Part shown: positions 3,993-38,406 of the stretch, one piece after another
Layout: every line of letters begins with the position of its first letter
Numbering within the stretch: position 1 is the stretch's first letter
Source: a virus
DNA length: 54,668 nt
Virus record (IMG/VR): IMGVR_UViG_3300008450_000051
Span: 1 to 54,668 of that record
Strand: one strand, 5' to 3'
Notes under the pieces: model-generated
The model's database searches: none
What the model was told of the DNA's origin: nothing
The model's input: only the letters and a program-made list of their open reading frames with translations
Position numbers and translations under genes: made by a program

Positions 3993-3994
3993 TA

Positions 3995-7303: not shown

Positions 7304-7322
7304 AAATATATGCTGGTTTATC

Positions 7323-7352: not shown

Positions 7353-7366
7353 CAAATACTTAGATT

Positions 7367-8062: not shown

Positions 8063-8071
8063 ATAAAAGAA

Positions 8072-21185: not shown

Positions 21186-21199
21186 AAGAAAAAAATTAA

Positions 21200-21270: not shown

Positions 21271-21279
21271 AGTGGTTAA

Positions 21280-21510: not shown

Positions 21511-21511
21511 G

Positions 21512-24674: not shown

Positions 24675-24675
24675 A

Positions 24676-25062: not shown

Positions 25063-25091
25063 ATTGTTGTTTTAGGTGATTGAAATATTAA

Positions 25092-25117
25092 AGACCAGCC
25101 TGAGAACAAGCTGGTCT
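25092..25117 (-). terminator. Hairpin between exonuclease gene and downstream genes
   Basis: On the - strand AGACCAGC pairs perfectly with GCTGGTCT (8 bp, 10-nt loop) and is followed by TTAATATTTC. The T tract is imperfect, so it may be a weak terminator, an attenuator or a transcript-stabilising stem that lowers expression of genes after the exonuclease. Confidence 0.4.
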
Positions 25118-25170
25118 ACTGCTGGAGTTTACCAAACCAAAACCCCTTTTGTTAATAATTAAACCAGCAA

Positions 25171-26166: not shown

Positions 26167-26845
26167 CCTTGATTAGTTTGGTTAAGGTTGTCTTCTGTGC
26201 TAGGTTCAACTTGTACTTTGGTAGTGCTGCTTCAACGTCTGCAATCTTGCCTTCGCTGATAGCCTTTACCATTGCATCAAATTGCTTTGGTGACAATGCC
26301 GTTAGCTCGGGGGATTCAGGAACCTCAGGACTGGGATTCGGCTTGGGAGCCTCCTGAGGAACCTTAGCTTGCGTCTTCCCCTTCGTGTTTATATGTTTGG
26401 TTAAATCCCATATACGCTCTCCTCTGTCATCTACTGGGTTGCCATACTGGTCGCATTTTATTGTGACCATCTCTAGGTCGTAGAGGAATCTCCCGATCCC
26501 CCACTGAACAGCAGCACGCTTGAATGCATCGGAGGCAGCAGACTTACCAGCCTGCTCGTACATCTGGTCCTTCTCATCGTTCTCTACTCTAGCTCCGCAG
26601 TCCCATCTCCAGACCACAGAACCATCGTCTTTGGTTATACCAATACCAGCAAAAATGAAGCCATTGATATCCTTAAAGTCTGATTGCCAGCCATTTCGGC
26701 AGTGCTTGTCTAGAGTGTCCATCACTTGGCGTGCGTCAATGTATGCCGAACAGAACGCCTTTGTCTTGTCTTTGTTACGGCTTTGTACCCTCCATTGATA
26801 AGGGATCGGTTGCTTCAGTTGAGCAACTAAGTCAGTTATGTTCAT
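26153..26845 (-). CDS. Rad52-family single-strand annealing protein
   Basis: 230 aa. The N-terminal 140 residues show the Rad52/22 (Sak-like) pattern: WRVQSRNKDKTKAFCSAYID, WQSDFKDINGF, then GKSAASDAFKRAAVQWGIGR followed by FLYDLE, the hallmark helix of the family. The C-terminal third is Pro-rich and then helical (LTALSPKQFDAMVKAISEG). It should coat ssDNA and anneal complementary strands with the neighbouring YqaJ exonuclease. Second or third gene of the operon after the promoter near 27.55 kb. Confidence 0.85.
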   Translation of the reverse strand: MNITDLVAQLKQPIPYQWRVQSRNKDKTKAFCSAYIDARQVMDTLDKHCRNGWQSDFKDINGFIFAGIGITKDDGSVVWRWDCGARVENDEKDQMYEQAGKSAASDAFKRAAVQWGIGRFLYDLEMVTIKCDQYGNPVDDRGERIWDLTKHINTKGKTQAKVPQEAPKPNPSPEVPESPELTALSPKQFDAMVKAISEGKIADVEAALPKYKLNLAQKTTLTKLIKDAKA

Positions 26846-26854
26846 ATGATAATT

Positions 26855-27079
26855 TTAAAGTGAATTGAGATACGTCTGCAGGAATCCATACTCGCTGGCT
26901 AGGAAATAGATAGTCTGCCAGTCATAGTAGAACTTGGTCTCCTTGCCTATCTGTATCGCCTTGACAAAGTGACCAACGACCAGCGACTCATGGTTAGCCA
27001 TAAGCCACTTGCGGTAGGGCTTCAGATCGTAATCCTGCCCATCTAGAATCATAATGTCCTTGGAATAATCGTACTTCAT
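26855..27079 (-). CDS. Hypothetical 74-aa protein
   Basis: Acidic/aromatic small protein (MKYDYSKDIMILDGQDYDL, then FYYDWQTIYFLASEYGFLQ). No family recognised. It lies 9 bases before the Rad52-type gene and 5 bases after the end of a 46-aa gene, so it is an early member of the recombination/replication operon. Confidence 0.6.
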   Translation of the reverse strand: MKYDYSKDIMILDGQDYDLKPYRKWLMANHESLVVGHFVKAIQIGKETKFYYDWQTIYFLASEYGFLQTYLNSL

Positions 27080-27084
27080 TTAGA

Positions 27085-27225
27085 CTAAGGTAGGAATAAT
27101 ACATACACATTGTTAAAAAGTTTTCCAAATGTTTTACACATAGCAAGGTCTATATCCCTGAGACTGGGATAGTCCGCTACTTTGTTTACGATTCGTAGCA
27201 TCATAGCCCAATCATGCATCCCCAT
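27085..27225 (-). CDS. 46-aa hypothetical protein, first gene of the operon
   Basis: An ATG at 27225 opens a frame beginning MGMHDWAMMLRIVNKVADYP that contains SLRDIDLAMCKTFGKLF and ends YVLFLP. The residue pattern is that of a compact helical protein and not of random translation. It ends 5 bases before the next start. I am moderately sure it is real. No function is visible. Confidence 0.45.
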   Translation of the reverse strand: MGMHDWAMMLRIVNKVADYPSLRDIDLAMCKTFGKLFNNVYVLFLP

Positions 27226-27317
27226 ATCCAAGGGGGAGTGGTCTTCTTACGAAGTCTCAGGTCACTGGTTGTCACCTTTAAAACATTGCCAGCTCTTTTA
27301 ACCACTCCTATCATCTC

Positions 27318-27340
27318 CCGACCGGCGACTAACTGGTCGG
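27318..27340 (-). other. Leader hairpin
   Basis: CCGACC pairs with GGTCGG over an 11-base loop in the roughly 300-nt leader between the promoter at 27536-27565 and the first small gene. It is not followed by a T tract, so it is more likely a structural or regulatory stem than a terminator. The rest of 27226-27406 holds only short ATG-initiated frames of under 40 codons that I cannot support. Confidence 0.35.
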
Positions 27341-27406
27341 TTAAGCATGAAGGACAATTAACTTTCTTTGGGTAGCCATCGTACTACCATTGGAAGAAAC
27401 CTGTTA

Positions 27407-27441
27407 AAACCAAAAAGCCCCCGATCCGAAGACCGAGGGCT
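27407..27441 (-). terminator. Rho-independent terminator/attenuator 2
   Basis: On the - strand AGCCCTCGG and the complementary arm ending GGGGGCT form an imperfect 9-10 bp GC-rich stem, followed directly by TTTTTGGTTTT. It lies downstream of the promoter at 27536-27565 and upstream of the recombination operon, so it should reduce read-through unless antiterminated. Confidence 0.6.
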
Positions 27442-27443
27442 AT

Positions 27444-27475
27444 AAAAAAACCCCAAGTGGTAAGAGCAAATGGGG
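27444..27475 (-). terminator. Rho-independent terminator/attenuator 1
   Basis: CCCCA (27471-27475) can pair with TGGGG (27451-27455) and is followed by seven T residues (27444-27450, read on the - strand). It would give a short RNA of about 85 nt from the promoter just upstream. The 15-nt loop contains CTCTTAC, which can pair elsewhere, so this hairpin competes with an alternative structure. Confidence 0.5.
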
Positions 27476-27519
27476 AGCAGTTAAAATAGAATTAGTATGT
27501 CCCCGATTTCGCCTCTTAC
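27460..27519 (-). promoter_or_regulatory. Alternative (antiterminator-like) stem in the operon leader
   Basis: GTAAGAG (27513-27519) can pair with CTCTTAC (27460-27466), and inside it GGGGA (27500-27504) with TCCCC (27472-27476). The inner stem uses the same C run needed by terminator 1, so the two folds are mutually exclusive. That is the logic of an attenuator or riboswitch-like leader. No known ligand-binding motif is recognised. Confidence 0.4.
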
Positions 27520-27535
27520 ACGTCATCGGAAGCCC

Positions 27536-27565
27536 CAAATATATAAATACTTTTTAAATAAACAA
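27536..27565 (-). promoter_or_regulatory. Bacteroidota-type promoter for recombination/replication operon
   Basis: On the - strand TTG (27563-27565) is followed by exactly 19 bases and a perfect TATATTTG box (27536-27543). This fits the Bacteroidota -33/-7 consensus (TTG, TANNTTTG). Transcription would start near 27529 and proceed into the leader with tandem terminators. It is the best promoter match in the window. Confidence 0.7.
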
Positions 27566-27634
27566 GGAATTACTGGGGTAATCTTTTGCACAAGGTAGTG
27601 AATATCACTACTTATCGCTCATTATTACTCCAGT

Positions 27635-27770
27635 TATAGCTCATTTGTACAGTTTTTTGCACAATAAACTGGATATTACTTGTAACATTTTTATGTACGA
27701 AAAAGTGTACATTATAACACTTTTATGTACATAATGTGTGATAAAAGCGACATATTACCACCTTTTGTAC
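27635..27770 (+). repeat. Iteron-like 16-bp repeats (four copies)
   Basis: Four direct 16-bp sites end in TGTAC and share TAACA/C..TTT.TGTAC: 27635-27650, 27683-27698, 27715-27730 and 27755-27770. The middle two are TAACATTTTTATGTAC and TAACACTTTTATGTAC. Related inverted TGTAC words lie between them. The stretch is very AT-rich and non-coding. It lies 70 bases upstream of the best promoter. Such arrays serve as replication iterons or as cooperative repressor sites. Confidence 0.55.
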
Positions 27771-27874
27771 CATTTTACTACACTTTATTGTGACAAAAAT
27801 TAAGCGCTGAGTTTAAATTATAGGCGCAAGTTGTACTAATAGTATAAAAATCTGCATTAAATTTTCCGGATTCT
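27771..27874. other. AT-rich non-coding remainder of the 27.23-27.87 kb intergenic region
   Basis: After the last 16-bp repeat the sequence stays AT-rich (for example CTACACTTTATTGTGAC and ATAGTATAAAAATC) up to the stop of the small gene at 27875. I see no convincing open frame, hairpin terminator or promoter box here. Together with the repeats it looks like an origin or operator region. Confidence 0.4.
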
Positions 27875-28090
27875 TCATGCATACTCAGATGATACGCCAT
27901 GCCCAGCCAGTGCTTGGTCTAGGTCTAACCTCCTGACATCGAACTCGTTAAGGTCAGGATTGCGCTCCAGTTTCCGGAAGTCTCGGGGGCTTAACACCTT
28001 GAGGCAGAACACCTCATAGCTAACCGATCCCAGTCTCTCCTCATCGTGGTAGATTATAACTGGATCTTGGAGTGCTATTCTTATCTTCAT
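27875..28090 (-). CDS. Hypothetical 71-aa protein
   Basis: Small soluble protein (MKIRIALQDPVIIYHDEERLG, then SPRDFRKLERNPDLNEFDV) with beta then helical pattern. It is the last gene of the operon coming from the right, overlapping its neighbour by 4 bases. No family recognised. Confidence 0.6.
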   Translation of the reverse strand: MKIRIALQDPVIIYHDEERLGSVSYEVFCLKVLSPRDFRKLERNPDLNEFDVRRLDLDQALAGHGVSSEYA

Positions 28091-28320
28091 AGGATTTTAT
28101 TTATGTTGGCGTACTCTTCGTGTACTGGCCCCGATAGGCAGGAGCCTACCACCCTTTGGTTGAGTGTGAACTCCACCCACGTTTCATCTTTTAGTGTCGG
28201 TTCGGGGGAATCAATCGGAACCCAAGTAGTACGGCTAACTACTCTATTACCACCATAGGGTACGTCCTTATTAAATCTAACCCACCATCTGTTCTCTAGT
28301 CTGAATGTTTGTCCTTGCAT
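28087..28320 (-). CDS. Hypothetical 77-aa protein
   Basis: Beta-rich small protein (QTFRLENRWWVRFNKDVPYG, then RVVSRTTWVPIDSPEPTL). It lies 2 bases after the recombinase stop and overlaps the next gene by 4 bases. The composition suggests a small barrel, but no family is recognised. Confidence 0.6.
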   Translation of the reverse strand: MQGQTFRLENRWWVRFNKDVPYGGNRVVSRTTWVPIDSPEPTLKDETWVEFTLNQRVVGSCLSGPVHEEYANINKIL

Positions 28321-28322
28321 AG

Positions 28323-29330
28323 TTAAGCATTTAAGAATTCTTTATAGTAGTTGTTTATCTCACTCTTATGTACACTATCCACCCAGCCTTGATACCTCTT
28401 GATGGCATCCGACTTATGGCCGGAGGCAAACCTTACGTGGTCCAGTGACACACCACCAGCCAGCATCGTTGTGATGGCGGTCTTGCGTAGCATATGTGGG
28501 TGTACGATATCGCAGAACTTACTTGACTGGAGCGACTTATCACCAGTGTGGTCCGCCTTCTTGTACGTGGTCTCCTCGTGCATCTCAGGGTAGGTAGCAA
28601 AGAATGGCTTGAGATTCTTGTTGATGAAGGTATCCTTACATCCGAAGCGAATGGGTGTGTATACCGATCCGTAGTTCTCTAGATTATAGAGATATCTTTT
28701 GTATAAAGATTCCGGCAGTGGTAGTGTGGTCATCGCCCCAGTCTTCTGATTCTCCTTCATAAGATATACGGAGCCGTTCATTACGATATCAGACTTGCTC
28801 AGGTTGATAGCATCGCCAACACGAAGAGAGGTGACCAGCATCGTTGCGCTTAGTTCCCAAAGATACTTATGCTCGGGGGACATAGAGTCATAGCGGTTAG
28901 CGGTATCGTTTATAAAGTCCTTAACGAACTGAATGGGTAGTGTTACAATGGGTACGTCAACTCCAATGGCGCGTCTTACTTTGGGTAGTGTGAGGAAGTA
29001 CTGCTCGGCCCAGTAGTCTGTCACTATTTTTAGAATATTGGTGACATCACGTCTTGTGTTAGCGGAGAATTTCTGACGAGTCATCCAGTCAATGAAGAGG
29101 TCGATGTGTCTATTGAACTTGTCTGCAACGGCGCGCTTCTCCTCCAGTGATAGGCTCGTGAGGTTGAACTCTTCTAGGTTGATACCACTCTTGGCGTATC
29201 GTTGGTAGGTCTTGAAGGCAAAGTTGTATGACTTGATAGACATCGGTTTGTAGTTGGTGCCGGATCGTGTGCGTAGTTCCCCAGTCCTCATCATCGTTAC
29301 ATACTTCTCCAGTAATGGTGTTAGCTTCAT
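28323..29330 (-). CDS. Tyrosine recombinase (integrase family)
   Basis: 335 aa with an N-terminal core-binding domain and a C-terminal catalytic domain. Catalytic residues can be placed as Arg170 (TSLRVGDA), Lys196 (ENQKTGAM), His279 and Arg282 (HPHMLRKTA), His305 (SGHKSD) and Tyr313 (IKRYQGW). These enzymes carry out site-specific recombination such as prophage integration or resolution of multimers. No att site or repressor/lysogeny module is evident nearby, so a role other than integration is possible. The start overlaps the DnaA-like gene by 4 bases. Confidence 0.88.
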   Translation of the reverse strand: MKLTPLLEKYVTMMRTGELRTRSGTNYKPMSIKSYNFAFKTYQRYAKSGINLEEFNLTSLSLEEKRAVADKFNRHIDLFIDWMTRQKFSANTRRDVTNILKIVTDYWAEQYFLTLPKVRRAIGVDVPIVTLPIQFVKDFINDTANRYDSMSPEHKYLWELSATMLVTSLRVGDAINLSKSDIVMNGSVYLMKENQKTGAMTTLPLPESLYKRYLYNLENYGSVYTPIRFGCKDTFINKNLKPFFATYPEMHEETTYKKADHTGDKSLQSSKFCDIVHPHMLRKTAITTMLAGGVSLDHVRFASGHKSDAIKRYQGWVDSVHKSEINNYYKEFLNA

Positions 29331-29653
29331 GCGATTAATCTTATGTGTTCTAGTATAGCGTTTAATGATTCATCGGTAGGTGACTTGTATGCCTCCAGTT
29401 CATCGTGGACTTTTGCATACGCTTGGTCAGACCTATACCTTGAGGAGTGCAGAGAACGGCAGTAGACAATCACAGTGTGGTCAACACCCATCTGCTTACC
29501 AATCTCGGTTAGTGTGTATCCTAGATTCACGCTGAGGATTTTACCTATTGCGTGGCGGATTCTAACTGCACCCGCTTTTCGGGAGCGGTCTTTTCTGATA
29601 TCAATTCCGTACTTGTTCTTGGCAAATTCACAGAGGTCGTGGTACTCTTGCAT
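29327..29653 (-). CDS. DnaA domain IV-like DNA-binding protein
   Basis: 108 aa. The segment VRIRHAIGKILSVNLGYTLT followed by EIGKQMGVDHTVIVYCRSLH matches the helix-turn-helix and signature (LxEIGxxxG-DHTTV) of DnaA domain IV, which binds DnaA boxes. The AAA+ ATPase part of DnaA is absent. Two perfect TTATCCACA boxes lie at 35940-36001, which this protein could bind to help host DnaA start replication or to control the adjacent promoter. The HTH identity is fairly secure; the box binding is inferred. Confidence 0.7.
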   Translation of the reverse strand: MQEYHDLCEFAKNKYGIDIRKDRSRKAGAVRIRHAIGKILSVNLGYTLTEIGKQMGVDHTVIVYCRSLHSSRYRSDQAYAKVHDELEAYKSPTDESLNAILEHIRLIA

Positions 29654-29805
29654 TGTTCGTATTTTTTAATTAGTTGAATAACTGCATCTGCTAACTCTTC
29701 GTTGATAGTGCGTAGCTTATGCACCACCAGTGCGTTTCTTTCTATCTTGTCTAGCTCTTGGTTGATAGCGAAGAACACCTTCTTTGCTGATTCTAATCGT
29801 CCCAT
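29545..29805 (-). CDS. Hypothetical 86-aa protein, long overlap with DnaA-like gene
   Basis: The first 55 residues form a plausible helical protein (ESAKKVFFAINQELDKIERN, RTINEELADAVIQLIKKYE). The last 30 residues (TSVNLPRTSTELISEKTAPE) are Thr/Ser/Glu-rich and overlap the DnaA-like gene by 109 bases. Either the two genes truly overlap or only the N-terminal part matters. Moderate support. No family recognised. Confidence 0.45.
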   Translation of the reverse strand: MGRLESAKKVFFAINQELDKIERNALVVHKLRTINEELADAVIQLIKKYEQCKSTTTSVNLPRTSTELISEKTAPEKRVQLESATQ

Positions 29806-29947
29806 ATTGTTTGTTTAACTGGTTAAAAATGTTGGCAGATATCTCGTTGTAGGAAAGCCTCTCGCTAGGGTAGGTACTCTTAAACGTAGGCCGATAAATA
29901 ACTGGGGGCTTCTCATCAAAGAAGAAGCGTTTAATCATCTGAAACAT
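29717..29947 (-). CDS. Hypothetical 76-aa protein
   Basis: I take the ATG at 29947 (MFQMIKRFFFDEKPPVIYRP) over an upstream one inside the previous gene. The N-terminal 55 residues look protein-like; the basic tail (QPRARQDRKKRTGG) lies in the 89-base overlap with the next gene. No family recognised. This pair and the next two genes are unusually dense. Confidence 0.45.
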   Translation of the reverse strand: MFQMIKRFFFDEKPPVIYRPTFKSTYPSERLSYNEISANIFNQLNKQYGTIRISKEGVLRYQPRARQDRKKRTGGA

Positions 29948-30234
29948 ATGCGTTTGTTTAGTTTGTTTGATGAACAAATAGTTCTGTCTCTTACGTAGTC
30001 GGTAACTCTAGACGCTGGTAGTCCGGTGAATTGTCCGGCAGCCGACCTAGAAGGGAACACTCCCAGTAATTCTTTTTTGTCGACATCAAATACCTTTGTC
30101 TTGATACCCTCTACGTGCAGTCCGATTTTCTCTAACCTCATAGGCTTAGTAAAGTAAGAATGGTTACGATTAACAATATGATTGGCAGTGTGAAGTCCTT
30201 TTTCATTCAATCTTTTTTGAGATGATGATACCAT
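29935..30234 (-). CDS. NUMOD1-like DNA-binding protein (99 aa)
   Basis: The centre reads KVFDVDKKELLGVFPSRSAAG then QFTGLPASRVTDYVRDR, which has the layout of the NUMOD1 domain (a beta hairpin plus helix-turn-helix) usually found at the C-terminus of homing endonucleases as a DNA-recognition module. No GIY-YIG or HNH nuclease domain is attached here, so it may be a free DNA-binding protein. It overlaps neighbours by 13 and 32 bases. Confidence 0.5.
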   Translation of the reverse strand: MVSSSQKRLNEKGLHTANHIVNRNHSYFTKPMRLEKIGLHVEGIKTKVFDVDKKELLGVFPSRSAAGQFTGLPASRVTDYVRDRTICSSNKLNKRICFR

Positions 30235-30403
30235 TGGGTGTACGCTCTACGATTAACCCATTCTTTTCCATCTCTGCCAGTTGCTCATCCAGTGGCATAA
30301 TCGGGCCGTCAGTTCGGGAGAATCCTACGTTGTCAGGAATCTTACCACTGGCGGTCTTCTTTACTTTGATTGTTGACTTCTTGTTGAATGCGTTGTCATT
30401 CAT
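30203..30403 (-). CDS. Hypothetical 66-aa protein
   Basis: Basic N-terminus (NDNAFNKKSTIKVKKTASGK) followed by a short helix and beta hairpin (PLDEQLAEMEKNGLIVERTP). Overlaps both neighbours (32 and 4 bases). No family recognised. Confidence 0.5.
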   Translation of the reverse strand: MNDNAFNKKSTIKVKKTASGKIPDNVGFSRTDGPIMPLDEQLAEMEKNGLIVERTPNGIIISKKIE

Positions 30404-30600
30404 AGGGTTTTGTTTTTGTGTAAGTTAATAATGTTTTTCTTTAGCTCATCAAGGTAGATAATAATTTTATCCACATCGTGCTTGTTGACTTCATCTCGTA
30501 ACTGGCTTTCCGTTTGCAGTCCTCTGTCATACCACCTAGAATCATCACTCATTTGGTAGTAGAAATCGTGGTCAATAACTCTTTTCAGTAACTCTTTCAT
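30400..30600 (-). CDS. Hypothetical 66-aa helical protein
   Basis: The ATG at 30600 (MKELLKRVIDHDFYYQMSDD) is chosen because an upstream start would overlap the next gene by about 100 bases. Charged and helical (DVDKIIIYLDELKKNIINLH). It contains an incidental TTATCCACA word at 30467-30475 within its coding sequence. No family recognised. Confidence 0.5.
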   Translation of the reverse strand: MKELLKRVIDHDFYYQMSDDSRWYDRGLQTESQLRDEVNKHDVDKIIIYLDELKKNIINLHKNKTL

Positions 30601-30865
30601 TTGCAAATAGTTGTTTAAATCCTCTATAGATTCCCCTCTTGTACGCATCCGTCTCGTGGTTGAATGCACCGGCCAGTATCAGAGAGGTGACTGATACATA
30701 CTTCGTTTCAATGTAGTGGAGGAGGTTGGAGAATGTCTTACCCTCTCTCAGCCTATCCAGTAGTTCTTCGGGAGACGTAACTGGGGTGTCATCGAACTGA
30801 TTGATTCGCTTTGCGTTAATGTGCGCATCAGCGATTGCTTTGATTTCTGGGGTGATACGTTTCAT
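30572..30865 (-). CDS. Hypothetical 97-aa protein
   Basis: Helical protein (MKRITPEIKAIADAHINAKR, then LLDRLREGKTFSNLLHYIET and AYKRGIYRGFKQLFANE). No domain recognised. Overlaps the next gene by 29 bases and follows a 54-aa gene by 3 bases. Early small-gene operon. Confidence 0.55.
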   Translation of the reverse strand: MKRITPEIKAIADAHINAKRINQFDDTPVTSPEELLDRLREGKTFSNLLHYIETKYVSVTSLILAGAFNHETDAYKRGIYRGFKQLFANERVTEKSY

Positions 30866-30868
30866 AGA

Positions 30869-31033
30869 TTATTGTTTGGTTACTAATCCTAACTGGACAG
30901 CGGTCTCGGCATCGGCTTCGCTACCGAATTCAATCTCGGCGGGATACTCTCCTTCGGGGGAGGTGATTTCAAAGTCGAGGTCTTCATCCATTAGATACAT
31001 AATGTCGGATCGGGAGTGTGCTAGGTACTTCAT
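30869..31033 (-). CDS. 54-aa acidic protein
   Basis: Frame from ATG at 31033 begins MKYLAHSRSDIMYLMDEDLD and is very acidic (FEITSPEGEYPAEIEFGSEA). It is flanked by 3- and 4-base gaps, so it fits the operon exactly. Such small acidic early proteins can mimic DNA or bind host proteins, but there is no direct evidence. Confidence 0.5.
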   Translation of the reverse strand: MKYLAHSRSDIMYLMDEDLDFEITSPEGEYPAEIEFGSEADAETAVQLGLVTKQ

Positions 31034-31037
31034 ATAT

Positions 31038-31208
31038 TTATAGTTTTTGATAACGCTTCCAACCTACTTGCTTCTCATCCTCAGAGGCGAGTCTTCTATA
31101 CTCCTCGCGTAACTGGGACTTTAGCTTTCGGTCTTTTGTTTTGTGATACTCTTCCCACACCTTGTCAATCTCTGACTGGTGTGTCGGCTGATAGATTTTC
31201 GATTTCAT
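31038..31208 (-). CDS. 56-aa charged helical protein
   Basis: From ATG at 31208 (MKSKIYQPTHQSEIDKVWEE) through a Lys/Arg/Glu-rich helix (KDRKLKSQLREEYRRLASED) to GWKRYQKL. It fills the gap between two genes and overlaps the 29-aa frame. No family recognised. Confidence 0.45.
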   Translation of the reverse strand: MKSKIYQPTHQSEIDKVWEEYHKTKDRKLKSQLREEYRRLASEDEKQVGWKRYQKL

Positions 31209-31254
31209 TGGCTAATTGGATTAGTTCTTGAATTGCTTCTTCTATTTCTTTCAT
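31165..31254 (-). CDS. 29-aa helical peptide
   Basis: ATG at 31254 opens MKEIEEAIQELIQLANEIEN ending DTPVRD, overlapping the start of the 56-aa gene by 44 bases. It resembles the 42-aa protein at 19241-19369. Because it is tiny and overlapping, support is weak. Confidence 0.3.
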   Translation of the reverse strand: MKEIEEAIQELIQLANEIENLSADTPVRD

Positions 31255-31281
31255 TTATAATTTGTTTTTTTCATTATCTTT

Positions 31282-31572
31282 TTACCAACTTGTCATAGCT
31301 CGTTGATAATTAGGATTACTTTTTAATGCTTCATCACAAGCAGTTTCAATATCCTTATCTATAATTGTTCTAAATCCTTTGTATTGACCATATGCGCCCC
31401 CGTATGTTTGCAACTGCAATATCTCTTTATTTTCATCTAAGTATTCTTTTACTTCTTTGGTGTCATTTTTAAATACTTCATATAAAGTAAGAGTCCCAAC
31501 TTGACCATAGCGGTCTACTCCACATTCAGAATAAAATGCTACTAATTTTTCTTTAATAAATTCTTTTTTCAT
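31282..31572 (-). CDS. Hypothetical 96-aa protein
   Basis: Soluble protein with a helical start (MKKEFIKEKLVAFYSECGVD), an aromatic Gly-rich centre (LQLQTYGGAYGQYKGF) and a helical end ending MTSW. It is preceded by an A/T-rich leader in a 59-base gap. More AT-rich than neighbouring genes. No family recognised. Confidence 0.55.
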   Translation of the reverse strand: MKKEFIKEKLVAFYSECGVDRYGQVGTLTLYEVFKNDTKEVKEYLDENKEILQLQTYGGAYGQYKGFRTIIDKDIETACDEALKSNPNYQRAMTSW

Positions 31573-31631
31573 AATTTTTTAAATTAGATTTTACCAACTT
31601 GTTTGATAATAAAATTGTTGTATCTCTTCCA

Positions 31632-31898
31632 TTACCATTGATTTTCGGTGAAGAATTTGTATGAATTTTGTAGGCTACCAGTTGTGCCTTTCTTTACCTC
31701 ATCGCGACTGGGGATGCGGTTGCCGTAGTAGTCTCGGTGGGACTCTTTGGGTAGGAAACAAGCGCCTGCTCTTAGTAAGTCCATTGCAGAGCGACCGATT
31801 GCTCCTTCCATTTTCCACGCCAGTCCAGTTTCAATTAGGTGTTGCATCTCTTCGTAGCCTTGCTCACGCTGATGCTTGCGGATAGTTTGAATGTGCAT
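31632..31898 (-). CDS. Hypothetical 88-aa protein
   Basis: Start at ATG 31898 (MHIQTIRKHQREQGYEEMQH), directly behind a TTAACCAAACCC leader. Contains TGLAWKMEGAIGRSAMDLLR and a conserved-looking ESHRDYYGNRIPSRDEVK. The sequence is typical of small phage proteins of unknown function carried in many copies by Bacteroidota phages. Overlaps the next gene by 35 bases. Confidence 0.55.
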   Translation of the reverse strand: MHIQTIRKHQREQGYEEMQHLIETGLAWKMEGAIGRSAMDLLRAGACFLPKESHRDYYGNRIPSRDEVKKGTTGSLQNSYKFFTENQW

Positions 31899-32064
31899 AA
31901 CATAGGGTTTGGTTAATAATTTCAACGATAGTATCTTGGACTTCAAACTCATCATAAAGGTCTGTGTTTGTGCAGTCCTTTACATATCCTAGTTCAACTA
32001 GCTTGTCAGTAATTCGAATAGCGATGTCTCTTACATCATCTTCCGATAAGAATTTGCTTGTCAT
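31864..32064 (-). CDS. Hypothetical 66-aa acidic protein
   Basis: Begins MTSKFLSEDDVRDIAIRITD and ends YAHSNYPQASA. Acidic helix (DLYDEFEVQDTIVEIINQT). Preceded by a CTAACCAAACCC leader 14 bases before the ATG. No family recognised. Confidence 0.55.
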   Translation of the reverse strand: MTSKFLSEDDVRDIAIRITDKLVELGYVKDCTNTDLYDEFEVQDTIVEIINQTLCYAHSNYPQASA

Positions 32065-32079
32065 AAAATTAGGGTTTGG

Positions 32080-32343
32080 TTAGGAACTGGGAGTGGAGTC
32101 GGAATGGTTAAACTCCGTTAAAATACATAAGCCTCTATCTGCACAATCTTTTACTATCTTTTTATCATTATGCTTTAGGAAGGCTACTATGCATTCATAT
32201 TCGGGCTTGTATCGGTCATTAAATGATGATAACTGGTAATCATAGAATAATTTTTTAATGTCTTCGTATAGTAGGTCGTACTCGTATTGAATGCCTATGA
32301 TTTCGTTATACAACTGGGTGAATAAAAAGAAAGAATAGTTCAT
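32080..32343 (-). CDS. Hypothetical 87-aa protein
   Basis: Aromatic-rich protein (NYSFFLFTQLYNEIIGIQYE, YDLLYEDIKKLFYDYQLSSF) with Cys in CADRGLC near the end. Its stop codon TAA lies inside the CTAACCAAAC leader of the next gene. The start leader differs from the AACCAAA type (AACTAAAAAAAATAAA). No family recognised. Confidence 0.55.
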   Translation of the reverse strand: MNYSFFLFTQLYNEIIGIQYEYDLLYEDIKKLFYDYQLSSFNDRYKPEYECIVAFLKHNDKKIVKDCADRGLCILTEFNHSDSTPSS

Positions 32344-32360
32344 AAATTTATTTTTTTTAG

Positions 32361-32621
32361 TTAATCAATCTCAATAAGTTTTCCGTCAACCAATTCGTAC
32401 TGATAGTCATCCTCCTCCCAATCCGTCCAGTAAGAATCGGTATCGGGAATCAGTTCGCCTTCACTATCAGTAGCGCCACTATACACCATATCGTGCCATT
32501 CAGCATCGGTGTATACTTGGTTAAGGCATTTATCGGAGCAGTAGTATGCCTCTCCTCCTCCAACTACATAGCCTTCGTTCATTCCGCACTCACATTGAGT
32601 GCATTGTCTTGCGTATTTCAT
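32361..32621 (-). CDS. Small Cys-rich (zinc-binding) acidic protein
   Basis: 86 aa. Four or more cysteines near the N-terminus (CTQCECG at residues 8-14, then CSDKC near 28-32) form a zinc knuckle/ribbon of the FCS or MYM type. The remainder is strongly acidic with many Asp, Glu, Tyr and Trp residues (DSYWTDWEEDDYQYELVDG). It could be a zinc-stabilised DNA-mimic or host interactor. Leader TTAACCAAACC. Confidence 0.6.
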   Translation of the reverse strand: MKYARQCTQCECGMNEGYVVGGGEAYYCSDKCLNQVYTDAEWHDMVYSGATDSEGELIPDTDSYWTDWEEDDYQYELVDGKLIEID

Positions 32622-32637
32622 ATGAGTGGTGGTTTGG

Positions 32638-32841
32638 TTAAAAATTTAGCATTTCTATTTGTGATTTCAAGTACTCTTCAGCTTGATACCTTTTTTCTTC
32701 ATCACTTATTGTAATATTCTTGCCGTTGGCAAATTCAATATGTACTTTGCCATTATTTTGATGTGGTTTAAATCCACATTCCTTACCGATTAGTTCAAGT
32801 TGAAGCATCGCGTAACGAGTAGTTAAACTTATTGTGTTCAT
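32638..32841 (-). CDS. Hypothetical 67-aa protein
   Basis: ATG at 32841 (MNTISLTTRYAMLQLELIGK) follows a TTAACCAAACCCCC leader. Contains ECGFKPHQNNGKVHIEFANG and a helix at the end (EKRYQAEEYLKSQIEML). No family recognised. Confidence 0.55.
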   Translation of the reverse strand: MNTISLTTRYAMLQLELIGKECGFKPHQNNGKVHIEFANGKNITISDEEKRYQAEEYLKSQIEMLNF

Positions 32842-32857
32842 ATGACTGGGGGTTTGG

Positions 32858-33010
32858 TTAATCATTTAAAGAATTAAGATGCTCTATCTCTGATTCATCA
32901 AGGTAGATGCGTAGACCATTATCTAACTTTATGTAGTTCACTCCTACATCAATAATCTTTTTGCCTACAATCCATTCCTTTGCTTCTTGCGTGAGGGTTA
33001 AGGTTGTCAT
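32858..33010 (-). CDS. 50-aa hypothetical protein
   Basis: ATG at 33010 (MTTLTLTQEAKEWIVGKKII) to NSLND at 32858. Helix, beta hairpin (DVGVNYIKLDNGLRIYLDE), helix pattern. Leader CTCATCAAAACCCC precedes it, and the three-way-junction element E1 lies just upstream at 33031-33078. No family recognised. Confidence 0.55.
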   Translation of the reverse strand: MTTLTLTQEAKEWIVGKKIIDVGVNYIKLDNGLRIYLDESEIEHLNSLND

Positions 33011-33030
33011 ATTTTATGGGGTTTTGATGA

Positions 33031-33078
33031 GGAACTGGGGGTGGTATCGCTCCACCTTCGCACTCTGCTCCCAGTTGT
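33031..33078 (-). ncRNA. Intergenic RNA element E1 (three-way junction)
   Basis: On the - strand AACTGGG (33070-33076) pairs with CCCAGTT (33033-33039). Inside are a short hairpin GCA/TGC (loop GAG) and a hairpin GGTGG/CCACC with the 7-nt loop AGCGATA. The element overlaps neither flanking stop nor start and is followed by the leader CCTCATCAAAACC and the ATG at 33010. First of a family E1-E6. Confidence 0.6.
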
Positions 33079-33084
33079 TGGTGA

Positions 33085-33315
33085 TTAGCACCACGCTTGC
33101 GAACTGCTGATAGCCACCATAAACAATTGCTCAAACTCTCCCTTTGTTATCGTGGTGAAATCATCCCATCCGCAGTAAGCATCAAGAAGGTCAAGCGGTG
33201 ATGACTTGCCATACTCCCATTTATATACACCGAATGGTATTTCTTTTAGTCCATTTACTCCTTCCCTTTGGTAGGTAATTATTGCTTGGAAACCGAATAA
33301 AAAATATTGATTCAT
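33085..33315 (-). CDS. Hypothetical 76-aa protein
   Basis: ATG at 33315 (MNQYFLFGFQAIITYQREGV). Contains LKEIPFGVYKWEYGKSSPLD and ends SSSQAWC. Lies between RNA elements E1 and E2 and has the CTCACCAAAACCC leader. No family recognised. Confidence 0.55.
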   Translation of the reverse strand: MNQYFLFGFQAIITYQREGVNGLKEIPFGVYKWEYGKSSPLDLLDAYCGWDDFTTITKGEFEQLFMVAISSSQAWC

Positions 33316-33334
33316 TGTATTGGGTTTTGGTGAG

Positions 33335-33381
33335 GAACTGGTCGGATAGCGAGTCCGATTGATGCCGAGCATCGCCAGTTC
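33335..33381 (-). ncRNA. Intergenic RNA element E2 (three-way junction)
   Basis: GAACTGG (33375-33381, - strand) pairs with CCAGTTC (33335-33341). Inside: hairpin GATGC/GCATC (loop TCG) and hairpin TCGGA/TCCGA with the 7-nt loop CTCGCTA. All three stems are perfect. It lies 6 bases after the stop of the gene at 33388 and 19 bases before the ATG at 33315. Confidence 0.65.
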
Positions 33382-33387
33382 GTGTGT

Positions 33388-33567
33388 TTACTCGTTGTCG
33401 TATTCGTTTTTATACCAATGTGAGATGTGAATTAACCTATCAATTAACTGAGAATCTGACTCTTTGGCGAGGTCAATAAAATCTTTGTGAGTAAATAAAT
33501 CTAATTCGCTTCCAGTCAGTTCAACAATGGCATCGACTAGTTTTTGTCTAATTGTGTTTGGAGTCAT
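33388..33567 (-). CDS. 59-aa hypothetical protein
   Basis: ATG at 33567 (MTPNTIRQKLVDAIVELTGS) to NEYDNE at 33388. Acidic helical protein (DFIDLAKESDSQLIDRLIHI). Leader GCTAACCAAACCTCC. Lies between elements E2 and E3. No family recognised. Confidence 0.55.
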   Translation of the reverse strand: MTPNTIRQKLVDAIVELTGSELDLFTHKDFIDLAKESDSQLIDRLIHISHWYKNEYDNE

Positions 33568-33588
33568 AGTATTGGAGGTTTGGTTAGC

Positions 33589-33630
33589 AACCGAGGGCAG
33601 TATCGCTCTGCCTTAACCACTCTCTCGGTT
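33589..33630 (-). ncRNA. Intergenic RNA element E3
   Basis: AACCGAG (33624-33630, - strand) pairs with CTCGGTT (33589-33595) and encloses hairpin GGCAG/CTGCC with the 7-nt loop AGCGATA. The second internal hairpin of E1, E2 and E4 is missing or very weak. Note that the outer stem sequence differs from the GAACTGC/GCAGTTC type yet still pairs, which is covariation-like support. Confidence 0.6.
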
Positions 33631-33638
33631 TGGGTACG

Positions 33639-33899
33639 TCAGCTATTTACTCGTTCTGCAAATTCCTTTAACGTATGGTAGCTATATGAATCCGACTCGT
33701 ATAAATCATAGAGAAATTCTTTTGCGCAGTAGAATCTTTCTACCTCTTCGCCGAAATACACTTGCTTGATAAGGTCGTTAATGGTTGGGAAAATGACCGC
33801 CGTAGTTCTTGTAATTACAATGTGAACTGCATTGCCATTGCCATCGTGACGGCATTCGTAAGTTTCATCCGCTTTGCGGAGATGTTCGCTATGCAACAT
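33639..33899 (-). CDS. Hypothetical 86-aa protein
   Basis: Starts MLHSEHLRKADETYECRHDG and contains HIVITRTTAVIFPTINDLIK and a C-terminal helix. Leader CCTAACCAAAACTCC. It sits between E3 and E4. No family recognised. Confidence 0.55.
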   Translation of the reverse strand: MLHSEHLRKADETYECRHDGNGNAVHIVITRTTAVIFPTINDLIKQVYFGEEVERFYCAKEFLYDLYESDSYSYHTLKEFAERVNS

Positions 33900-33919
33900 A
33901 TTACTGGAGTTTTGGTTAG

Positions 33920-33966
33920 GAACTGCTCCGGTATCGCTCCGGTATGACCGCTGAGGTCGGCAGTTC
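33920..33966 (-). ncRNA. Intergenic RNA element E4 (three-way junction)
   Basis: GAACTGC (33960-33966, - strand) pairs with GCAGTTC (33920-33926). Inside: hairpin GACC/GGTC (loop TCAGC) and hairpin CCGG/CCGG with the 7-nt loop AGCGATA. It follows the stop of the gene at 33973 by 6 bases, and the leader CCTAACCAAAAC begins immediately after the closing stem. Confidence 0.65.
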
Positions 33967-33972
33967 GGGGGA

Positions 33973-34317
33973 TTATTTACCTATCAAATCAAGAAAATCC
34001 ATACAAGTGTATTTACCTTCTAATGGCTCCCATACTGAAACCCCTTCTATATTATCTATATATTCATTTTTGTCTTCACTATTTTCTATTCTCCTTACTT
34101 GCTCCTCTATCTCTTCTCCGTCCCAATTACTTAAATAATATGATGCATTTGTTACATAATCTTCTGGAATGGCATTCAGAATACTCTCAGATTCCGCTTT
34201 TAAATGAAGGATAAGACCTTCGGTTACTACGCAATTGATATCGTTATTGGTAGTTGGGTTGTAATTTTCAACTGCTTGAGTTATAGCTTCTATTGCTTTT
34301 CTTACTTGAGTTTTCAT
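33973..34317 (-). CDS. Hypothetical 114-aa acidic protein
   Basis: ATG at 34317 (MKTQVRKAIEAITQAVENYN) behind leader TTAACCAAACTC. Helical and acidic with clusters such as WDGEEIEEQVRRIENSEDKN. Similar in pattern to small antirestriction or DNA-mimic proteins by charge only. No family recognised. Confidence 0.55.
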   Translation of the reverse strand: MKTQVRKAIEAITQAVENYNPTTNNDINCVVTEGLILHLKAESESILNAIPEDYVTNASYYLSNWDGEEIEEQVRRIENSEDKNEYIDNIEGVSVWEPLEGKYTCMDFLDLIGK

Positions 34318-34333
34318 AATGTTTTGAGTTTGG

Positions 34334-34492
34334 TTAATGCTTAAAAAATACACTTAAAGATTTTGTATGCTTATTTGCTTGGTAGTATAATGGCTTTTCG
34401 TTTTTGCCTGCCATTGATAGCCATAAATTCAAATGTTGAGTAGATTTGAATGTTCGGCAATAAGTTTTTGACTGATGTTGAATCTTATTCAT
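34334..34492 (-). CDS. 52-aa basic protein
   Basis: ATG at 34492 (MNKIQHQSKTYCRTFKSTQH) to SVFFKH. Basic, His/Lys/Gln-rich, with a central LNLWLSMAGKNEKPLYYQAN. Leader CTCATCAAAACCC. No family recognised, but it fits the operon spacing (16 bases before the next start). Confidence 0.5.
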   Translation of the reverse strand: MNKIQHQSKTYCRTFKSTQHLNLWLSMAGKNEKPLYYQANKHTKSLSVFFKH

Positions 34493-34511
34493 TTTATAGG
34501 GTTTTGATGAG

Positions 34512-34557
34512 GAACTGCGGTCGGTTTCGCTCCGACTTCGGTCTTACCTCGCAGTTC
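34512..34557 (-). ncRNA. Intergenic RNA element E5
   Basis: GAACTGCG (34550-34557, - strand) pairs with CGCAGTTC (34512-34519), 8 bp. Inside is hairpin GTCGG/CCGAC with the 7-nt loop AGCGAAA. The linker AGGTAAGACCGAA has no clear second stem. Same leader CCTCATCAAAACCC follows. Confidence 0.6.
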
Positions 34558-34562
34558 GGCCG

Positions 34563-34772
34563 CTACTTGAAATACTCTTCCACTAATTCAGTATAATCAT
34601 CATTTTTACCATACCCTCTAAATACTTGTAAATATTTAGAATCATACCCATTCATTAGCTTATCTATATCACTTAATGAAGGGATTTTACTTCTTGTTTC
34701 ACTACCTTGTATAGATGGGTATGGGGAATTGAAATCCCTTTCTGATGTGTGAAATAATAATTGGTAATCCAT
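34563..34772 (-). CDS. Hypothetical 69-aa protein
   Basis: ATG at 34772 (MDYQLLFHTSERDFNSPYPS) with leader CTCATCAAAACTAAATAAA. Contains IPSLSDIDKLMNGYDSKYLQ and ends LVEEYFK. Lies between E5 and E6. No family recognised. Confidence 0.55.
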   Translation of the reverse strand: MDYQLLFHTSERDFNSPYPSIQGSETRSKIPSLSDIDKLMNGYDSKYLQVFRGYGKNDDYTELVEEYFK

Positions 34773-34791
34773 TTTATTTAGTTTTGATGAG

Positions 34792-34834
34792 GAACTGCAC
34801 ACCATTGAAGGTCACGGCCAAACCGATGCAGTTC
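34792..34834 (-). ncRNA. Intergenic RNA element E6 (divergent member)
   Basis: GAACTGC (34828-34834, - strand) pairs with GCAGTTC (34792-34798) as in E4. The interior can form short stems CGG/CCG and ACC/GGT but lacks the conserved 7-nt loop. It is the most divergent member and could be degenerate. Confidence 0.5.
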
Positions 34835-34841
34835 GGGGGAC

Positions 34842-34925
34842 TTATCTACAAATTTGGTCTTGCAGTAAACCTACTACATACCCTACTACCAGTAGGACAA
34901 GTAATAACTGAATAACTTGCTTCAT
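34842..34925 (-). CDS. 27-aa single-TM peptide
   Basis: ATG at 34925 overlaps the stop of the upstream gene (ATGA) and opens MKQVIQLLLVLLVVGYVVGL ending LQDQICR. The core is one transmembrane helix. Tiny membrane peptides are common among early phage proteins that alter the envelope. Supported by coupling, composition and position before E6. Confidence 0.5.
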   Translation of the reverse strand: MKQVIQLLLVLLVVGYVVGLLQDQICR

Positions 34926-35116
34926 AGAGGTGACAATTTAGTTTGACGGCATACACGCTCCCATTTTAAGTCGCGTAGGATTTGCTTAGAATCCCCACCT
35001 AACTCGGCAAGGATTTGCTTTACCCGATTGTGGGTAGAGATAACGGCTTCCGCTCTGCGGATAACTTGCCCATTGGCTTTTGCCGTGAATAGGGGGGACT
35101 TAATTCTTTTGCGCAT
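34922..35116 (-). CDS. 64-aa basic protein
   Basis: Starts MRKRIKSPLFTAKANGQVIR and is Lys/Arg-rich with a helix AVISTHNRVKQILAELGGDS. Possibly nucleic-acid-binding by charge. Overlaps neighbours by 4 and 17 bases, indicating coupling. No family recognised. Confidence 0.55.
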   Translation of the reverse strand: MRKRIKSPLFTAKANGQVIRRAEAVISTHNRVKQILAELGGDSKQILRDLKWERVCRQTKLSPL

Positions 35117-35234
35117 AACTGGGAGATTGAAGGGTTATAAAATCGGTTTGGAAGGTCACAATCTGCCAACCCTCATAGAGGAATTTACTGGCTATTTGCT
35201 GACCTCTTAGGGTGGTGATGTTAATGGTTATCAT
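35100..35234 (-). CDS. 44-aa hypothetical protein
   Basis: ATG at 35234 opens MITINITTLRGQQIASKFLY, continues EGWQIVTFQTDFITLQSPS and ends YAQKN. It overlaps the membrane-protein stop by ATGA (35231-35234) and the next start by 17 bases. Beta-rich small protein. No family recognised. Confidence 0.5.
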   Translation of the reverse strand: MITINITTLRGQQIASKFLYEGWQIVTFQTDFITLQSPSYAQKN

Positions 35235-35410
35235 AGTTTTTCAATTGCTTTATTTGAAAGTCCTAGTGTTAATACGGTAACTCCCATTATTGAAGTAATT
35301 GCGCCAAACATCATAAAGCCTTTATCTAGGTAAGGAAGTCCCGCTAGAAAGAAAGGGTTTAAAATGATTGCTGGGATTACTAATTTTAATAAGAATACTA
35401 GTTTTTTCAT
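35231..35410 (-). CDS. 59-aa two-TM membrane protein
   Basis: ATG at 35410 (MKKLVFLLKLVIPAIILNPF) lies 13 bases after the hammerhead ribozyme and after leader AACCAAAAACCCCAGTT. Two hydrophobic stretches (FLLKLVIPAIIL and MMFGAITSIMGVTVLTLGL) predict a small membrane protein with a short loop. It is the first gene of the small-gene operon. A longer frame to 35608 exists but would run through the ribozyme and structured leader, so I reject it. Confidence 0.6.
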   Translation of the reverse strand: MKKLVFLLKLVIPAIILNPFFLAGLPYLDKGFMMFGAITSIMGVTVLTLGLSNKAIEKL

Positions 35411-35423
35411 AACTGGGGTTTTT

Positions 35424-35472
35424 GGTTTCGCCTTGCTTAGGCTCATCAGTACGGATAGCGTATCCGTAGACC
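35424..35472 (-). ncRNA. Type III hammerhead ribozyme
   Basis: Read on the - strand the 49 bases contain every core element in order. Stem III 5' arm GGU and cleavage-site C (35472-35469), stem I hairpin (35468-35450) with 8 perfect pairs UACGGAUA/UAUCCGUA around CGC, the invariant CUGAUGA (35449-35443), stem II GCC/GGC with loop UAAGCAA (35442-35430), the invariant GAA, then ACC closing stem III (35429-35424). The triplet before the cut is GUC, the standard one. Cleavage would fall between 35469 and 35468, about 60 nt upstream of the ATG at 35410. All invariant positions match. Short stem III is usual for natural type III hammerheads, and loop I-loop II contacts could stabilise the fold. Confidence 0.88.
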
Positions 35473-35905
35473 TTATCCAATCTGTCGGAGGATGAACTGC
35501 CGATGCGACACCGCATCCGTTTACACCCTCATTCCGACTCCGAAAGAGCGCTACGATAATCACGGTCACACCGCTTGGGGTTTTCTCTCCCCGACTATCC
35601 CTCATCAATGCACCGACAAGGTAGTGGTTTCCTAAAAGTTAGCCATTAGGTATGGGCTGACTGGTTTGGGGCTGATAGCCTTAGGTCGGAGGTCATCCGA
35701 GCATCATAACTGGTACTAACGGAGGAGAGGGCGGTAGGTGACTACTGATGCCTTCGCTCGTTTCCCGATGCCGTAAGAGGTTTGGTGTTCCGTCCATCAT
35801 ACTCACCTATACGGGTGGATGGGTGGGAGTGCGTTACCCTAACTCAAAACCTTAAAAGAACTTCGGACTCACTAACGAATCCGAGGCAAACATACATCGG
35901 CAGGG
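35473..35905 (-). ncRNA. Long structured non-coding leader upstream of the ribozyme
   Basis: About 430 nt between the presumed transcription start near 35909 and the ribozyme contain no convincing gene. They show local stems on the - strand: GATGCG/CGCATC (loop GTGT, 35502-35517) and CGGATT/AGTCCG near 35862-35882. There are also a C/G-rich CCCACCC region and several GGxxCC-type arms. GC content is clearly higher than the flanking AT-rich DNA. It may be a large structured RNA processed at its 3' end by the hammerhead. I do not match it to a known class. Confidence 0.45.
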
Positions 35906-35915
35906 TAACTACTTC

Positions 35916-35923
35916 CAAATTTA
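35916..35923 (-). promoter_or_regulatory. Promoter -7 box for small-gene operon
   Basis: TAAATTTG on the - strand matches TANNTTTG exactly. The -33 position 19 bases upstream lacks a TTG. A DnaA box (35940-35948) covers that region instead, so the promoter may be activated or repressed by a DnaA-type protein. Transcription would start near 35909 and go leftwards through the structured leader. Confidence 0.45.
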
Positions 35924-37381: not shown

Positions 37382-37523
37382 GCTCCAGTCAGCCATCTCG
37401 GCTAATATCCGTGAATTGATGGCGGATAACAAGAAGAAGGGTAAGGAGAAGGGGGCTGGTGGTAAAGCCAGATCCAAGAAGCAGATCCTTGCTATTGCTA
37501 TATCAGCTGCCAAAGGTAAATGA
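37350..37523 (+). CDS. 57-aa basic protein, DUF6496-like
   Basis: ATG at 37350 opens MPLKKAKGKSELQSAISANI, then RELMADNKKKGKEKGAGGKA and RSKKQILAIAISAAKGK. The (R/K)SxKQxxAIAxSxA ending resembles DUF6496-type small phage proteins. It overlaps the HNH gene by ATGA at 37520. Function unknown. Confidence 0.55.
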   Translation: MPLKKAKGKSELQSAISANIRELMADNKKKGKEKGAGGKARSKKQILAIAISAAKGK

Positions 37524-37789
37524 GGAAGCACACTAAGGTATACTTAGACTTCTTTGGTTACGGGATGGATAGCTGGATGCCCTGCGAGATGTGCGGATCT
37601 ACGGCTGTGGATGTGCATCATATCGAGGCTCGGGGTATGGGTGGGTCTAAGACAAAGGACGAGATAGATAATCTGATGGGTCTTTGCCGTACATGCCATG
37701 TTGAGTATGGCGACAAGAGGAAGTACATGGACATGCTCCGTGAGGCGCACATGCGTTTTATGGATAAGTATAGTAATTCACATTTGTAG
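37520..37789 (+). CDS. HNH endonuclease
   Basis: 89 aa with zinc cysteines CEMC (residues 22-25) and CRTC (57-60), and the HNH core VDVHHIEARGMGGS with NLMGLCRTCH downstream. HNH proteins next to the terminase are often needed for packaging or act as homing nucleases. Its place at the head of the packaging block, some 4 kb before the terminase, fits a packaging nuclease. Coupled to the previous gene. Confidence 0.85.
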   Translation: MRKHTKVYLDFFGYGMDSWMPCEMCGSTAVDVHHIEARGMGGSKTKDEIDNLMGLCRTCHVEYGDKRKYMDMLREAHMRFMDKYSNSHL

Positions 37790-37836: not shown

Positions 37837-38406
37837 ATGCAGCCGATCTATAAAATCTTCGTCAAGATTGATAAACGGTTTCAAAACGAAATAGAAACCG
37901 AGTCTGGCTTAAAGCTATACAAGGATACTTCGTTTAGACCTGAGGAGAACTCCACTATCGTTGGTGATGTCGTTGCTGTGCCTGATAAGTATGACAGGGC
38001 TATGGGCTCTGATCAGTTTAAGGCCAATGTCATTGCTGGCGATAAACTATATTTTAATTTCTTGGTGACGGTAGATGAGGAGAATAGAATTGAGGTAGAT
38101 GGTGAGGAGTACTGGATGGTAGATTATTTTAATGCGATCGCGCTGGTGCGTGATGGTGAGCTAATACCAGTTGGAGATTATATTCTTATTGAGCCAATAG
38201 ATGAGAAGATAGAGAGCACGCTAATTATCCCAGAAACTGTAGATAGGGAGGGCAACCGTGGCCGTGTGGTGGCAAGCAACGATGAATCTATTCCAAACGG
38301 ATCGCTGGTGGAGTATGAGGAGGTGGGTAAGTTTTGGAACATCATTGAAGGCAAGAGGGTTTACTGTATGTATAACCAGAACATTTTATTTTTATATAAT
38401 GACTAA
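37837..38406 (+). CDS. Tandem GroES-like (Cpn10-fold) protein
   Basis: 189 aa. The C-terminal half (VGDYILIEPIDEKIESTLII, GRVVASND, NIIEGKRVYCMYNQNILF) has the Cpn10 layout. The N-terminal half (IYKIFVKIDKRFQNEIETES, GDVVAVP, VIAGDKLYFNF, YWMVDYFNAIALV) repeats it in outline, so the protein seems to be two GroES-like domains in tandem. Phage co-chaperonins such as T4 gp31 adapt host GroEL to fold the capsid protein. The gene lies in the head operon, consistent with this. The duplicated arrangement is unusual. Confidence 0.6.
   Translation: MQPIYKIFVKIDKRFQNEIETESGLKLYKDTSFRPEENSTIVGDVVAVPDKYDRAMGSDQFKANVIAGDKLYFNFLVTVDEENRIEVDGEEYWMVDYFNAIALVRDGELIPVGDYILIEPIDEKIESTLIIPETVDREGNRGRVVASNDESIPNGSLVEYEEVGKFWNIIEGKRVYCMYNQNILFLYND

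Follow-up and report, generated by a model that had tools for sequence, protein, structure and literature searches.

What does a self-cleaving ribozyme do at the head of a phage operon? The window analysed here, the whole 54,668-base stretch of an IMG/VR virus record, contains exactly one hammerhead, and downstream of it on the same strand lies an operon that begins with small genes. At a probability of roughly 0.68, we read it as an authentic type III hammerhead whose role is to separate a leader RNA from the early mRNA. The features on which this reading turns are the following:

35887 to 35919, minus strand: presumed Bacteroidota-type promoter TTTG-N21-TATGTTTG, a motif found at the same place in relatives
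35469 to 35880, minus strand: non-coding leader RNA of ~415 nt with a putative start, recognised by conservation and GC content; its release by the hammerhead is predicted
35852 to 35862, minus strand: boxA-like motif AGTTCTTTTAA, from leader comparison and Bacteroidota rRNA loci
35424 to 35472, minus strand: type III hammerhead ribozyme, from direct reading of the core, an RF00008 match and covariation in relatives
35231 to 35410, minus strand: first operon gene, 59 aa, no family match
18750 to 35410, minus strand: downstream operon region, small genes first

Read directly on the minus strand from 35472 to 35424, the element is GGUC-UACGGAUA-CGC-UAUCCGUA-CUGAUGA-GCCU-AAGCA-AGGC-GAA-ACC. It holds the hammerhead core, CUGANGA ... 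GAA (here CUGAUGA at 35449-35443 and GAA at 35429-35427), and an N-U-H cleavage site, with G35472-G35471-U35470-C35469 as the strand 5′ of the predicted cut. Three helices surround this core and covary: an 8-bp stem I at 35468-35450 (UACGGAUA-CGC-UAUCCGUA), a 4-bp stem II at 35442-35430 (GCCU-AAGCA-AGGC), and a stem III (GGU/ACC) that is short in the window, at 3 bp, and is closed by ACC at 35426-35424. Stem III is open and loops close stems I and II, which is the topology of type III. An earlier note, made from the letters alone, had placed the complete core on this strand correctly to the base, and its 8-bp stem I and ACC-closed stem III stand; it had given stem II 3 bp, where there are 4. 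Hammerheads cleave themselves 3′ of H17, giving a 2′,3′-cyclic phosphate and a 5′-hydroxyl. Here the predicted cut falls at 35469|35468, 58 nt upstream of the ATG at 35410, in agreement with the previously proposed distance of about 60 nt.

The type III covariance search that the note had suggested does return the element: RF00008 (Hammerhead_3) matches it at 33.4 bits (E 1e-4 in 2.6 kb, 5e-7 per genome), and at E<=1e-3 none of 14 control genomes gives a match. All core positions and the topology are common to family and element, which departs from RF00008 in its short stem III and short stem II loop, and its score falls below the curated gathering score of 48.5, above which the note had wanted the match to lie. 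This threshold is a curation cut-off and not a biochemical feature; no relative tested passes it either, and nothing was listed when the window and six relatives were put through Rfam at default settings, as the window's score lies below it. In a fold of the full leader, stem III forms rarely (pair probability ~0.06), and with only 3 bp in this stem cleavage may therefore be slow or need loop-loop contact. Complementarity between loop I and loop II exceeds that of shuffles (0.0005) in a comparison of related sequences, and a contact of this kind was described for hammerheads by Perreault et al. (PMC3088659).

All loci compared carry L numbers; relatives were retrieved from viral contigs by terminase (TerL) similarity, and ~120 of the loci with the hammerhead core pattern. 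In the terminase relatives the core stands at the same place and on the same strand. Junction hammerheads occur in 17 records including the window. The standard core is present in 13 (the window, L003, L004, L006, L007, L011-L015, L083, L144 and L388), three (L005, L009 and L023) have one extra U after CUGAYGA, and one (L089) has a U-to-C change within the core. Over 17 aligned hammerheads, 93.6% of helix cells are paired against 65.4% when shuffled (0/500 shuffles), and 72 double changes affect 13 of the 16 pairs. Most rows of this alignment were picked by place and core only, with pairing not used, and L165, L169, L171, L261 and L388 had been picked up by searching with DNA patterns. When 3.1 Mb of loci were scanned by strict structural rules, there were 180 hammerhead-like matches, a total inflated by the ~120 loci that were fetched with the core pattern, against 1 in a Markov control. 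As judged from aligned sequences, the sub-threshold Rfam score is outweighed by this comparative evidence for hammerhead identity.

What lies upstream of the cut had been missed. More than the trimming of a short leader is involved: comparison of the loci places the hammerhead at the 3′ boundary of a non-coding leader RNA of ~415 nt, which has a promoter of its own. Promoter and leader lie within a gap of ~680 nt that follows a MarR-like gene, a weak match that is conserved in relatives. TTTG-N21-TATGTTTG, which we take to be a promoter on the established Bacteroidota promoter consensus, is shared in position by L003, L004, L005, L011, L012, L013, L169 and L388. The leader is relatively GC-rich (GC 0.50-0.54), and over ~300 nt it is highly conserved in L006, with 54 consecutive nt identical; the neighbouring protein has only ~34% identity between the two. 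The L006 leader carries a 23-nt hairpin insert, which argues against a coding role. The leader part before the hammerhead covaries in nine relatives of another leader subclass, where the 3′ domain is 97.7% paired and 10 of 19 pairs show double changes. The folding energy of the leader is no better than that of shuffles (z 0.47), and the argument that it is structured is therefore drawn from its conservation and from the covariation in those relatives of another subclass. Covariance models of curated large RNAs in Rfam gave no match to the leader in the window or the relatives scanned. As a large non-coding phage RNA it resembles GOLLD, ROOL and others, from which it differs in having no Rfam match, in being shorter, in standing at an operon head and in ending at a hammerhead.

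Two observations concern other leaders and promoters. In L174, L197 and L199, phages with Shine-Dalgarno sites, the sequence running up to a type III hammerhead is a conserved leader of another kind (ACCCACA...CGCAYCAGCGGGCTTTTAGCTGTTACGGRTGC), perhaps an independent pairing of leader and hammerhead. L013 has a second promoter at 4294 on the minus strand, distant from the hammerhead leader, with a boxA-like motif 54 nt downstream.

Just 3′ of the promoter, most leaders carry the motif AGTTCTTT(G)AAA. Of 18 leaders, 15 have GTTCYYT within their first 110 nt, where 0.35 would be expected, and a clear boxA-like motif is absent from the remaining three. When bacterial genomes were scanned with the longer form AGTTCTTTGAMATATTGG, the matches listed were mostly from Bacteroidota, and 92 of 124 among the matches listed fall in loci that also hold rRNA sequence. 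The motif near the 5′ end of the leader corresponds to the boxA of host rRNA operons; the window's version, AGTTCTTTTAAGG, matches more weakly than those of L165 or L169. The arrangement recalls rRNA leaders (boxA, NusB/S10), lambda nut and HK022 put, in which a boxA-like motif likewise lies a short way past the promoter that serves a long operon, and rRNA leaders are also later cut from their product, as we propose here. The cut is made by RNase III in rRNA leaders and by a predicted built-in ribozyme in the phage, and the phage leader has no recognised boxB and a large conserved body, unlike rRNA leaders, nut or put.

The phage motif may accordingly act in antitermination, the leader being a cis-acting RNA of the nut, put or rrn kind that stays on the polymerase through boxA while the hammerhead cuts the mRNA loose from it, in a manner comparable to the cutting of rRNA precursors by RNase III. 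This is a specific form of the separator reading, and the two are not exclusive. In its favour are the frequency of the motif and its match to Bacteroidota rRNA loci, the length of the operon, and the finding that in E. coli boxA alone suffices for assembly of the antitermination complex of rRNA operons (PMC10250234). The leaders without a clear motif, and a conserved 3′ domain that boxA alone leaves unexplained, weigh on the other side, and we hold the proposal tentatively, at somewhat less than even odds.

Downstream of its small genes the operon continues with integrase, Rad52-like, RecE-like exonuclease, primase/helicase and dNMP kinase genes, and the earlier view that the hammerhead heads an operon of small genes is borne out, the operon being one of the replication region. 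Elsewhere in the neighbourhood, a GroES-like co-chaperonin gene (37837-38406, plus strand) and a small HNH endonuclease gene (37520-37789, plus strand) are kept beside the leader in much of the group.

The fetched loci contain 170 distinct hammerheads, a count that does not measure prevalence because some loci were selected by core pattern. An ATG-started frame lies within 150 nt of 161 of them, mostly 12-25 nt downstream, and for type III elements the ATG is 8-32 nt downstream in 31 of 37 cases. The hammerhead could therefore be thought to serve the mRNA only, its 5′-hydroxyl and hairpin protecting the early mRNA or exposing the start codon and the leader being a by-product: the start codons stand at a narrow distance after the element, type III topology keeps the hairpins on the mRNA, and in the Proteobacteria-like L158, L208, L217 and L227 type III hammerheads are intergenic and have no leader. 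We regard this as unlikely, given that ~300 nt of the leader are so highly conserved, that a leader domain covaries in nine relatives, and that the types nearly always follow one order along the strand. Hammerheads share one strand in every multi-hammerhead locus. Fifteen loci combine type III with another type on a strand, and in 14 of them type III leads (L011, L015, L083, L171, L174, L191, L193, L197, L199, L207, L261, L403, L404 and L405; the exception is L212). This count leaves aside L267, where a type III was called weakly in AT-rich sequence. Among these loci, L404 is elemoC_14-1A, a cultured phage of Flavobacterium (MT497067), with its type III at 6908-6962 and a type I at 8997-9054; L405 is the Pelagibacter phage HTVC019P.

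Some details of these other hammerheads are worth recording. L267 has about ten type I hammerheads in a 6-kb stretch (2291-8607, plus strand), nearly one per gene. In L404 an annotated hypothetical protein lies opposite a type I hammerhead (8962-9069, minus strand) and is probably not a gene. The idea that type I hammerheads cut UUAACC strands in trans was dropped, because UUAACCAAA is what normally precedes a start codon in these operons.

The earlier note had also pointed to a family of repeated RNA elements nearby. Such a family exists: six stem-closed intergenic elements lie in the window between 33033 and 34834, and four of them are a perfect 7+5-bp minihelix:

34792 to 34834, minus strand: stem-closed intergenic element GAACTGC...GCAGTTC, upstream of a gene that starts near 34771 (by eye)
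34513 to 34556, minus strand: 7+5-bp minihelix, loop AGCGAAA, ATG 20 nt downstream
33920 to 33966, minus strand: stem-closed intergenic element, loop AGCGATA (by eye)
33589 to 33630, minus strand: minihelix, loop AGCGATA, ATG 21 nt downstream
33335 to 33381, minus strand: minihelix with an extra spacer hairpin, loop CTCGCTA, ATG 19 nt downstream
33033 to 33076, minus strand: minihelix, loop AGCGATA, ATG 22 nt downstream

To the note's observation we can add that minihelices precede start codons as hammerheads do, and that they replace the junction hammerhead in three relatives. In L008, L082 and L010 the leader ends in a tRNA-like minihelix with a 7-bp acceptor-like stem, a UGG-bearing spacer and a T-arm with loop UUCGAUU, and no hammerhead stands at the junction; the same elements occur between downstream genes in relatives. 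Along the relatives' operons, type I hammerheads and minihelices recur typically 10-25 nt upstream of a start codon. A minihelix covariance model gave 48 matches, spread over 19 of 30 records, and within a record nearly all lie on the same strand. The first search demanded a T-loop and pairing, which makes its covariation count partly circular, and it was rerun without the loop rule: this loop-blind scan gave 50 matches against 4.4 in the control, with an ATG 10-24 nt downstream of 42 of the 50 and the loop TTCRA in 26 of the 50. The relatives' minihelices are tRNA-like, with a 7-bp acceptor stem stacked on a T-arm with a TTCRANN loop. In the window, the minihelix loops (AGCGAWA or CTCGCTA) depart from the T-loop consensus and the T-loop covariance model R1 has no match, so that tRNA-likeness is unsupported for the window's own elements.

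The window minihelices belong with L082 810-853 and 1306-1349 and L089 1365-1408 and 2969-3012 to a second class, with 7-nt NNCGNNA loops and a spacer in which a 3-bp hairpin is often present; the stems and 3′ flank (CAGTTCCTCATCAAAAC) of this class are those of the T-loop class as well. The junction minihelix of L010 (3844-3900, minus strand) has an extra spacer hairpin and is nearer a whole tRNA.

Model RNAs made of an acceptor stem and T-arm are RNase P substrates (reviewed in PMC11143913), and the relatives' acceptor/T-arm minihelices are probably substrates as well. Mitochondrial tRNA punctuation, the RNase P model minihelices and the phage C4 and M3 RNAs, which RNase P cuts, offer parallels, in that tRNA-like folds between genes are likely cut sites; the present elements are distinguished as 40-46-nt acceptor/T-arm units that have no anticodon arm, lie in phage operons and are exchangeable with hammerheads. 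The retention of a cutter at the junction, in most relatives a hammerhead and in some a tRNA-like hairpin, points to a long early transcript that the phage divides into separate pieces. Two relatives, L084 and L392, have the leader and neither hammerhead nor minihelix at the junction, and cutting is thus not indispensable.

For the separator reading, we infer the following course of events. RNA polymerase would start at the promoter at 35919-35887, make the ~415-nt leader with its early boxA-like site and enter the operon, and the hammerhead would cut itself at 35469|35468 while emerging. The released leader would have a near-clean 3′ end, retaining just the GGUC strand of stem III, and the early mRNA would begin with a 5′-hydroxyl, the hairpins of stems I and II forming a cap; the placement suits the earlier prediction that the 3′ product has a defined 5′ end and starts with a hairpin. 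In relatives, type I hammerheads and tRNA-like minihelices would do the same cutting between genes further downstream. Because type III hairpins stay on the downstream product, a type III element at the junction would free the leader almost clean and cap the mRNA; type I hairpins stay on the upstream product, so the next mRNA would get a short clean 5′ end. The order of types, III first and then I, fits this division of products. A broader scheme, to which we give a little under an even chance, is an RNA punctuation of Bacteroidota phages, with a new-class boxA leader freed by a type III hammerhead or minihelix, operons cut gene by gene at type I hammerheads and minimal tRNA-like elements that stand 10-25 nt ahead of start codons, and topology deciding which product keeps the ribozyme.

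One could also argue, from the score below the Rfam cut-off, the short stem III and the core change in L089, that the sequence resembles a hammerhead by chance, or is a relic or otherwise inactive; this is very improbable in view of the covariation, the conserved place and the blank control genomes. Least probable is a retrozyme-like role, in which the RNA between two hammerheads is released and perhaps circularised: in several loci a single strand bears more than one hammerhead, but the window has one, the intervals are ordinary genes of variable length, and Perreault et al. sought circular or spliced products and detected none (PMC3088659).

The window terminase is a distant relative (~30% identity) of Flavobacterium phage terminases. 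As a prophage search of genomes with the TerL profile found no relative, promoter, boxA and TerL relatives are all that point to a Bacteroidota-type host. Megablast and distant blastn against known phages gave no match to the locus.

Perreault et al. (2011) report clustered hammerheads that flank prophage genes, propose cutting into single-gene mRNAs, and show that some arrays cleave in vitro and in E. coli (PMC3088659). Hammerheads that flank phage genes, with a likely role in cutting transcripts, are on this account already known, and the earlier remark that such a use was not a recognised one goes too far, since the cutting of polycistronic phage RNA had been proposed and partly tested there. 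The prophage hammerheads are like the present ones in flanking genes of phage transcripts; in the parts of that paper covered here, their description differs from the present loci in having no promoter/boxA leader, type-III-first rule or tRNA-like exchange. In the literature searched, which was covered in part, we found neither the leader nor the order of types described, nor the replacement of a hammerhead by a minihelix.

What hammerheads do in phages has been a question since 2011, and the place and order of those described here, together with their replacement by tRNA-like elements, provide an answer that is specific and can be tested: they would separate a leader RNA and then cut mRNAs. 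Close arrangements are present in cultured Flavobacterium and Pelagibacter phages, and the leader and the 40-46-nt minihelices are candidates for new RNA families.
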